A stretch of 64,000 nucleotides of DNA from Candidatus Rokuibacteriota bacterium. GTDB taxonomy: Bacteria; Methylomirabilota; Methylomirabilia; Rokubacteriales; CSP1-6. The position numbers and the translations under genes are program-made. Shown piece after piece: positions 2,497 through 4,717 of this stretch; position 1 is the first letter of the stretch, and the number at the start of each line of letters is the position of its first letter. The stretch lies in the NCBI GenBank assembly GCA_016866775.1, contig VGLJ01000001.1, positions 1-64,000 of the forward strand, read 5' to 3'. A model generated the notes under the pieces. That model did not search any database. It was not told the origin of the DNA and was given only the letters and a program-made list of their open reading frames with translations.

Positions 2497-2584
2497 GCGG
2501 CGCCTGCGCGAAGAGGAAGAGGCGCTGAGCCGCGACCCGAAAGGCCGGCTCAAGGCCGCCGCGGACCGCTTCAAGAACCTCTGA
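1973..2584 (+). CDS. Hypothetical protein with DRRxGDRR-type Arg-rich segment
   Basis: ORF 203 aa, GTG start. Balanced composition and charged C-terminus. Confidence 0.7.
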   Translation: MAKELIIVTRDNPDLLESLRQEFSGQPDVQVLVDRRTGDRRPPNGATAPERRRAEQRTLQEAELLQTMAFFRVAAAAAGDAFIEVKRMGPPTPQQVSGRVFTWTAALNQYPPKPWRELFGDTKDRSIDHSPDKVRFYQTVLIFDSDEDKVPNWVHFIDGWIRSANERYMKRLDTERRLREEEEALSRDPKGRLKAAADRFKNL

Positions 2585-3773
2585 CGGGCGCCTGCTCGTC
2601 GCCCAGCTCCTTGCGGAGCGCGTCGGCGAGCCGCACGTACTGCGCCGGGTCGTTGTAGAGCTGCGCCGAGATCCGGACGAGGCGCCGCGGCGGCGCGGGC
2701 CAGCTCATGATCGGCACCTCGATCCCCCAGTGCTGGAACAGGCGGGGATGGAGCGGATCCGGGTTGCGCCAGTAGATATCGGTCGTCGGCCCATCGGGCA
2801 GGACGACACTCGCGAGCGATCCGATCATCTGGTCCGGGCACGGCAGTGCGGTGCCGACGGTCTCCGCGAGCAGACGACGCGCGTCGAGCGCCAGCGTGTG
2901 ATTGCGCGCCATGATCGCCGGCCAGCCGCCGGGCACGAGGCCCGCGACGTACTCGATGGCCTTCGGCACCGTGAGCCACGCCGTCGGATCGCTCGTCCCC
3001 GTCCAGTCGAACTCCAGACGAAAGCGCTCGCGGCCCGGCCGGCGCGCGGTCGCGCCGTGGCTGATCGTCAGCGGACGCACGTCGGCGTGACGATCGCGCC
3101 GCACCCAGAGGAACGCGGAGCCCTTCGGCGCGCACAGCCACTTGTGGCAGTTGCCGCTGTAGTACGTGGCCCCGAGCGCATCGAGATTCAGCGGCACCAT
3201 GCCCGGCGCGTGCGCGCCGTCGACCAGCGTGTCGATCCCGCGGCGCCCGAGCTCGGCGATCAGCCGCTCGATCGGAAGGATCAGCGCCGTCGGGCTCGTG
3301 ACGTGATCGAGCAGCGCCAGCCGCGTCCGCGGCGTGACGCGCGCCATGACGGCGTCGACGACGGCGTCGGGCGACGCGACGGGAAACGGCACCGGCGCGA
3401 TGACGACGCGCGCGCCGCTCCGCCGCGCCGCGTACTCCAGCGCGTTCTTGCACGCGGTGTACGCGTGATCGGTGGTGAGCACCTCGTCGCCGCCGGCGAG
3501 CTCGCGCGAGCGGAGCACGGCGTTGACGCCGCTCGTCGCGTTGGTGACGAACGCGAGGTCGTCCGGATCGGCGCCGAGAAACGCGCCGAGCTGGCCACGC
3601 GCGACGTCGAGACGGTCGTCGAGCTCGCGCGACAGGAAGCGCACCGGCTCGCGCTCCATCTCCTGGCGGAGCGCCGTTTGATACCGGAGCACCTCGGTCG
3701 GACACGCGCCGAACGACCCGTGGTTGAGGAAGATCACGGCGGGATCGAGGGACCACTGCGTCGCGAGGTTCAT
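2571..3773 (-). CDS. Aminotransferase class V family (isopenicillin-N epimerase-like, PLP)
   Basis: ORF 400 aa: FLNHGSFGACP, NATSGVNAVL, DGAHAPGM, YYSGNCHKWLCAPKGSAFLWV (PLP lysine). Confidence 0.9.
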   Translation of the reverse strand: MNLATQWSLDPAVIFLNHGSFGACPTEVLRYQTALRQEMEREPVRFLSRELDDRLDVARGQLGAFLGADPDDLAFVTNATSGVNAVLRSRELAGGDEVLTTDHAYTACKNALEYAARRSGARVVIAPVPFPVASPDAVVDAVMARVTPRTRLALLDHVTSPTALILPIERLIAELGRRGIDTLVDGAHAPGMVPLNLDALGATYYSGNCHKWLCAPKGSAFLWVRRDRHADVRPLTISHGATARRPGRERFRLEFDWTGTSDPTAWLTVPKAIEYVAGLVPGGWPAIMARNHTLALDARRLLAETVGTALPCPDQMIGSLASVVLPDGPTTDIYWRNPDPLHPRLFQHWGIEVPIMSWPAPPRRLVRISAQLYNDPAQYVRLADALRKELGDEQAPVRGS

Positions 3774-3780
3774 GGGCCCA

Positions 3781-3786
3781 TATAAT
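3781..3786 (+). promoter_or_regulatory. Consensus -10 box TATAAT upstream of LLM gene
   Basis: Exact TATAAT in otherwise GC-rich DNA. Predicted TSS near 3793. No convincing -35 seen. Confidence 0.4.
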
Positions 3787-3799
3787 CACGCCGAGGGGG

Positions 3800-3877
3800 C
3801 TTGGGGGTCCTGAGCTGTCGGGCCCCATGTTCAAGGGGTTTGGGGTCCTATGATGCGGGGCCCCATCTTTCAAGGAG
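3800..3877 (+). repeat. Two tandem ~39-bp imperfect repeats, each forming a hairpin, in a 5' leader
   Basis: tgggggtcc-tgagctgtc-gggcccca then tcaagg; tggggtcc-tatgatgcg-gggcccca then tcaagg. The second copy ends in aaggagg, the SD of the 3887 ATG. Confidence 0.7.
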
Positions 3878-3886
3878 GGCCAGCCC

Positions 3887-4717
3887 ATGCACTACGGCGT
3901 CGTCATGTTCCCCACCGATTACGCGATCCGCCCCGACGACCTCGGGCGCGCGGCCGAGCAGCGCGGCTTCGAGTCGCTGTGGGTGCCGGAGCACACGCAC
4001 ATTCCCGCGAGCCGCAAGAGCCCGTGGCCCGGCGGGCCGAACCTGCCGAAGGAGTACTGGCACAGCTACGATCCGTTCGTCGGGCTCGCGATGGCGGCCG
4101 CCGTCACCACGAAGCTCAAGCTCGGCACCGGGATCTGTCTCGTCATCGAGCGCGATCCGATCCTCCTCGCGAAGGAGGTCGCGAGCCTCGATCACCTCTC
4201 GAAAGGACGGTTTCTGTTCGGCATCGGCGGCGGATGGAACGCCGAGGAGATGGAGCACCACGGCACGCCGTTCAAGAGCCGCTGGAAGATCCTCCGCGAG
4301 CGCATCCTCGCGATGAAGGAGCTCTGGACGAAGGAAGAGGCGGAGTACCACGGCCAGTACGTGAGCTTCGACAAGAGCTGGGCGCATCCGAAGCCCGTGC
4401 AGAAGCCTCACCCGCCGATCCTCATGGGCGGCGACGGCCCGACGACGTTCGACCGCGTGATCGAGTTCTGCGACGGCTGGATGCCGATCGCCGGGCGCAT
4501 GGGCAACCCGATCGACAAGATCGGCGAGCTGCAGCGGCGCGCGAAGGACGCCGGGCGCAAGCCGATCCCGGTGACCGCGTTCATGCCGAAGCCGGAGCGC
4601 GGTGTGCTCGACGGCCTCGAAGCGGCGGGCGTCGAGCGCGTCGTGCTCGGTCTTCCGTCGGACACGCCGGAGAAGGTGCTGCCGATCCTCGACGGCTACG
4701 CCAAGCTGATGCGTTAA
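3887..4717 (+). CDS. LLM class F420-dependent oxidoreductase
   Basis: ORF 276 aa: WVPEHTHIP, KLGTGICLVIERDPILLAKEVASLDHLSKGRFLFGIGGGWNAEEMEHHG. Confidence 0.93.
   Translation: MHYGVVMFPTDYAIRPDDLGRAAEQRGFESLWVPEHTHIPASRKSPWPGGPNLPKEYWHSYDPFVGLAMAAAVTTKLKLGTGICLVIERDPILLAKEVASLDHLSKGRFLFGIGGGWNAEEMEHHGTPFKSRWKILRERILAMKELWTKEEAEYHGQYVSFDKSWAHPKPVQKPHPPILMGGDGPTTFDRVIEFCDGWMPIAGRMGNPIDKIGELQRRAKDAGRKPIPVTAFMPKPERGVLDGLEAAGVERVVLGLPSDTPEKVLPILDGYAKLMR

Follow-up and report, generated by a model that had tools for sequence, protein, structure and literature searches.

Three groups of dispersed bacterial repeats are the closest described systems to the element reported here. The mycobacterial interspersed repetitive units (MIRUs) are small, dispersed and seemingly mobile repeats; they go into start codons and leave the host gene largely undisturbed (PMC12548453). 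The REP/BIME sequences are palindromes of 20-40 bp that occur at high copy number, form a single hairpin, show an intergenic bias and are found as dimers and nested composites (PMC3733652), and REPs favour gene ends (PMC12306157). The Rickettsia palindromic elements (RPEs) are palindromic, carry an open reading frame and occur within protein genes unrelated to one another, in frame with them (PMC10969869).

The locus compared here lies in a window of 64,000 nt, the whole stretch of DNA analyzed, from a 5.13-Mb genome of Candidatus Rokubacteria, where two hairpins adjoin the Shine-Dalgarno sequence (SD) of an oxidoreductase gene. We read them, with a probability of roughly four in five, as separate insertions of a new REP/MIRU/RPE-like miniature palindromic element with SDs or their immediate surroundings as insertion sites; the reading builds on a dispersed family, a bias in location, orthologous junctions that are empty, copies nested in other repeats and covariation of stem length, all observed directly. 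By analogy, the repeat is MIRU-like in its place of insertion, REP-like in its build and RPE-like in its tolerance by genes, and fully shows the defining features of none. It shares with REPs the small palindrome, the single hairpin, the high copy number (~90), the mainly extragenic location and the dimers and nested composites, but it lacks the GTAG or CGTC tag, having instead the ends GAGGGG... and ...ATGTTCAA(A)GG, and it favours SDs, not gene ends. In-frame intragenic copies are common to this repeat and RPEs, whereas RPEs are ~150 bp in size (PMC10969869) and often intragenic and the present repeat is ~45 bp and mainly located at SDs. MIRUs belong to another host phylum, and the comparison with them is one of published descriptions.

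Two hairpins between a probable promoter and a Shine-Dalgarno sequence

The intergenic space between the aminotransferase-like gene and the LLM gene (3774-3886) and its surroundings contain the following features:

2571..3773, minus strand: divergent class-V aminotransferase-like gene (PF00266)
3781..3786, plus strand: probable -10 promoter element TATAAT, an exact match to the motif; similar boxes stand at the comparable place in orthologues; expected transcription start site ~3793
3793..3836, plus strand: copy 1 of the dispersed palindromic repeat, with a left arm of the 5-G subtype; hairpin ~3803-3826, tail ATGTTCAAGG
3832..3878, plus strand: copy 2 of the dispersed palindromic repeat, 4-G subtype; stem 3841-3848 / 3857-3865, tail TCTTTCAAGGAGG
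3872..3878, plus strand: Shine-Dalgarno AAGGAGG, formed where the tail of copy 2 ends; element-free orthologues have it as well
3887..4717, plus strand: F420-dependent LLM-class oxidoreductase gene (TIGR03619, PF00296)

The original prediction, which described a promoter at 3781, a transcribed leader and two tandem hairpins abutting the SD, was right about this order: TATAAT is present exactly at 3781-3786, and the -10-like boxes of orthologues agree with it. The tandem repeats are likewise real, with direct repeat units at 3797-3831 and 3835-3869 that are 77% identical over 35 nt, although their spacing is 38 nt and not the 39 nt given before. The stem with a U-G pair that had been assigned to both copies is found as claimed in copy 2 (TGGGGTCC/GGGGCCCCA), while the arms of copy 1 have five G against four C, so that its outer pairing is imperfect. 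As had also been proposed, the tail of copy 2 becomes the SD, running into AAGGAGG 8 nt before the ATG at 3887. The 5' flank of copy 2 and the tail of copy 1 have AAGG in common.

The TATAAT string alone is weak evidence for a promoter, since 0.43 occurrences are expected by chance in the window and one was found; no -35 box was found for it. Its assignment as a -10 element is supported by the Rokubacteria orthologues of the LLM gene, in which a comparable box (TATGCT, TATCAT or TATAAT) lies 9-16 nt upstream of the same SD (for example TATGCTACATCGACCCAAGGAGG in L058 and TATAATGCCGGCACGCACCCTCAGGAGG in L066). In the window this distance is 85 nt, and subtraction of two 38-nt units leaves ~9 nt; both units therefore lie between the old promoter and the old SD. 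The repeat unit was found at none of the 80 orthologous loci searched (HMM, E<=3), and the orthologues without the element still keep the -10-like box and the SD. Absence of the repeats upstream of orthologous genes is the very result that the original prediction had named as speaking against it.

The fold of the whole leader RNA is not more stable than that of shuffled sequences (z=+0.52). In the predicted fold, copy 1 is paired with the SD region and the SD is partially paired, and the accessibility of the SD is intermediate to low whether the elements are present or removed. Since the fold does not stand out from shuffles and the accessibility of the SD is similar with and without the elements, the leader fold is no argument for a switch.

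A dispersed repeat family

A DNA search of the genome with positions 3700-3890 as the query gave 40 scored matches among 123 candidates and, apart from the window itself, every match falls in the hairpin units. A covariance model built from 48 copies finds, at a cut-off of E<=0.01, at least 95 places across the 5.13 Mb, and 87 distinct copies were located in 1.45 Mb, in regions picked around copies; these are minimum numbers. Some 90 more copies outside the window show that the repeat there is not due to chance. The consensus of the ~40-45 bp unit is GAGGGG-TTTGGGGTCC-(7-9 nt)-GGGGCCCC-ATGTTCAA(A)GG, with a very conserved core and with conservation also of the loop and both tails. An Rfam scan of the locus gave no match near any gathering score, and our literature searches turned up no account of repeats of this kind in Rokubacteria.

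The lengths of the G-run and C-run arms covary, with 48 copies of type 4/4, 22 of type 5/5 and 9 discordant (4+5); the associated p of 4e-11 (Fisher) is optimistic, since the copies are related by descent. RNAalifold reported no compensatory substitutions in the core, as is expected where the core is invariant. In relatives, the outer pair changes jointly (GTGGGGG...CCCCCAC, CTGGGGG...CCCCCAG and ATGGGGG...CCCCCAT, that is G-C, C-G and A-T). The covariation of arm length together with these joint changes argues that the hairpin is real, as DNA or as RNA.

In the window, one copy is of the 5-G and the other of the 4-G subtype, and their loops differ; they are 77% identical to each other, while matches to copies elsewhere reach 91%. 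Unlike subtypes are more readily explained by two separate insertions than by duplication in place. A translational switch specific to the LLM gene, built by local tandem duplication of one hairpin, would explain why two units stand in tandem 38 nt apart and adjoin the SD, but the mismatch of subtypes, a mutual similarity no higher than that to distant copies, the lack of both units in orthologues and, above all, the genome-wide family already contradict it, and we regard it as barely credible.

Empty junctions and nested copies

Separate insertion also agrees with element-free versions of the sites occupied in this genome, which were compared with relatives of other genera at about 65-89% protein identity. 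At the etfB-etfA junction, several relatives have 12-20 nt from stop to start (TGA-GGGGGCGGGAGACC-ATG; TAG-GGAGACGACGAC-ATG), and this genome has TGA-AGGGG(element)TCCAAAGGGGAGACGGGG-ATG. Between hisC and hisB, the relative G012 has GCAAAGGGAGACACCGCATGAGC and this genome has GAAAAGAGGGGGC(element)TTCAAAGGAGACGCGATGAGC. Moreover, three copies lie in the loop of another copy (L034, L141 and L143), and four are embedded, with near-identical junctions, in a second palindromic repeat that is G-rich (L031, L040, L139 and L168). At the level of sequence comparison, the nested copies and the element-free orthologous junctions indicate that the family has spread by insertion. The test for target-site duplication was borderline, the longest k-mer shared by the flanks being slightly above shuffles and reached by 26 of 500 shuffled sets; possible duplications are seen in single cases, such as AAGGGG at etfA.

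GTAG REPs are tied to a RAYT/Y1 transposase, and in this respect too the repeat differs from them. No RAYT-type Y1 transposase (PF01797/Y1_Tnp) was found in this genome, which is 97.5% complete and in which the controls were positive; Y1_Tnp occurs in some relatives, yet is absent from most of those that bear the element. We rejected a RAYT/Y1 transposase as the mobiliser on these grounds.

Position of the copies relative to genes

Genes were called with our own script (codon model and codon-position GC filter), by which 92.8% of the sequence is coding. As with MIRUs, the preferred place is at start codons: by a simple ORF test, separate from these gene calls, 43 of the 87 copies have a same-strand start codon with an SD close behind the hairpin, and in 40 of them it follows 15-23 nt past the C-run, with a peak at 18-19, compared with 39 of 4000 random sites (1%) at 14-23 nt; copies directly before starts form the largest class. 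Crowding does not explain this position: where 20 nt or more lie free upstream of the element, 16 of 19 copies still have the start 17-22 nt past the hairpin. The short ORF of MIRUs is coupled, at a spacing of -4 nt, to the gene that follows, whereas the present repeat has a hairpin and an SD-like tail before the start. No fixed coupled ORF was found in it: the stretch between its ATG and the start of the gene ranges over 15-23 nt, in all frames.

At start copies, the CAA(A)GG tail of the repeat forms or abuts the SD. The tail CAA(A/G)GG is the same in start and non-start copies and is followed by AG at starts and mostly by CG elsewhere; since the tail does not differ, the element brings CAAGG, and the SD was either completed by the target or was itself the target. 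Twelve copies are reversed at a gene end, where the stop codon is mostly a TGA from the element's own TTCA. Despite the high coding density, only 13 of the 87 copies lie clearly inside genes, all of them in open frames. The in-frame insert in HisF reads EGGLGVLSDGAPMSKGT and is absent from the 11 orthologues compared, which have variable loops there (for example ESGAGERP). In-frame copies, which add ~12-18 residues in protein genes, occur at L018 9378-10181 (minus strand), L034 11522-12961 (plus), L158 7762-9855 (minus), L149 8247-10481 (plus) and L010 9696-10613 (plus); the hosts are HisF and proteins that, judged by eye, resemble GTPase Der, molybdopterin oxidoreductase, CoxL-like and spermidine-synthase-like proteins.

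No common function was found among the ~40 downstream genes, which include those for HisB, ribosomal protein L25, urease, malic enzyme and ETF; solute-binding proteins account for 7 of the 40, a count that stands without a genome-wide base rate. The claim that the hairpins are a translational switch or regulatory leader dedicated to the LLM gene thus does not hold, as the same unit precedes ~40 functionally unrelated genes and also lies in genes and behind stops. A wider regulatory reading would make the hairpin and SD a co-opted module that binds a protein or a small RNA, or influences mRNA stability, with a regulon of ~40-50 genes in which the LLM copies are tandem sites. The tight, fixed spacing to start codons and the very conserved core are as such a module would have them, and the partial SD pairing predicted in the window leader and the several solute-binding protein genes point the same way. 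Against this, many copies lie inside genes or reversed at gene ends, the element is absent from the LLM orthologues, and the leader folds no better than shuffled RNA. CsrA is the obvious candidate binder for SD-overlapping sites; it was looked for and not detected. Because the downstream genes have no common function and CsrA was not detected, we consider such a regulon unlikely.

Related elements in other Rokubacteria

Of the 40 relatives searched, 8 have a related element in which both hairpin and tail recur, with up to 28 matches (G015), and the same search with the pattern read backwards gave 0 matches. These elements of other genera have the TTGGGGGCC...GGGGCCCCCATGTTCAA hairpin and the tail of the repeat described here but, unlike it, mostly carry an extra 5' hairpin (GGAGCGCCACGGCTTCGCCGGGGCGCTCC). 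Twenty of their 45 copies are reversed directly behind stop codons, against 2 at starts. In two other Rokubacteria genera, G001 (L214) and G011 (L211), different hairpin elements have been placed independently just ahead of the etfA SD, in the stretch ~20-110 nt before position 1501. With elements at stops in relatives and at the etfA SD in G001 and G011, the preference for gene boundaries is wider than this genome; the preference for SDs is strongest in it. In L203 (G009), L131 (G033) and L137 (G013), the hairpin element of the relatives forms short tandem arrays.

The frequent location behind stop codons in relatives, together with the G+C-rich stems, would suit transcription terminators or attenuators that recur by convergence and have not spread. 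This is very unlikely, however, since neither a U-tract nor a terminator-like site was found, conservation extends to the loop and both tails, for which termination has no need, and the largest class of copies in this genome stands directly before starts.

A model for insertion at Shine-Dalgarno sequences

For the mobile element we infer insertion by transposition, in which the SD would be the target and not a product of selection, with a near-neutral effect on expression. The element would enter, or survive only at, purine-rich AAGG sites. At an SD, it would land just ahead of the SD, behind the promoter or the stop codon that lies upstream, and its tail would form or abut the SD at a working distance, with the start 17-22 nt past the hairpin, so that downstream translation would be preserved. 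In reverse, its TTCA would supply a TGA stop, and inside genes it would be tolerated because its frame is open. At the LLM gene, two such insertions would have lengthened a short 5' UTR to ~94 nt, and any regulatory effect on this gene would probably be secondary. Such an element would be miniature and non-autonomous and tolerated where translation is left intact. More tentatively, and at somewhat less than even odds, we propose a selfish element with insertion specificity for SDs (AAGG), compatible with translation in these three ways (re-forming the SD when forward, giving a TGA stop when reversed, and staying in frame inside genes), moved by a non-Y1 mobiliser and present in lineage-specific versions across Rokubacteria.

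Gene ends are the usual home of small palindromic repeats, and insertion at a ribosome-binding site is expected to be harmful, yet the family prefers exactly that place and would rebuild the SD there, which illustrates how selfish DNA may multiply where genes are densely packed. Within a single genome, tens of 5' leaders could thus be rewritten with no visible functional logic, and hairpins adjoining an SD are, by themselves, no proof of a riboregulator.

Other palindromes in the genome

The second G-rich palindromic family, composed of a variable 5' hairpin followed by GCGTGGGGGGCTTGGGGGGCGCCCGGAGCCCCCCAA, has 12 exact core copies in 1.45 Mb of this genome, for example at L162 1680 (minus strand), L160 8717 (minus) and L173 6587 (plus). 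Counts of k-mers revealed a third abundant short palindrome, with ~12 copies in the same 1.45 Mb and with 16-mers such as CGGAGGGGGGCTTCGC / GGGGGCTTCGCCCCCC.
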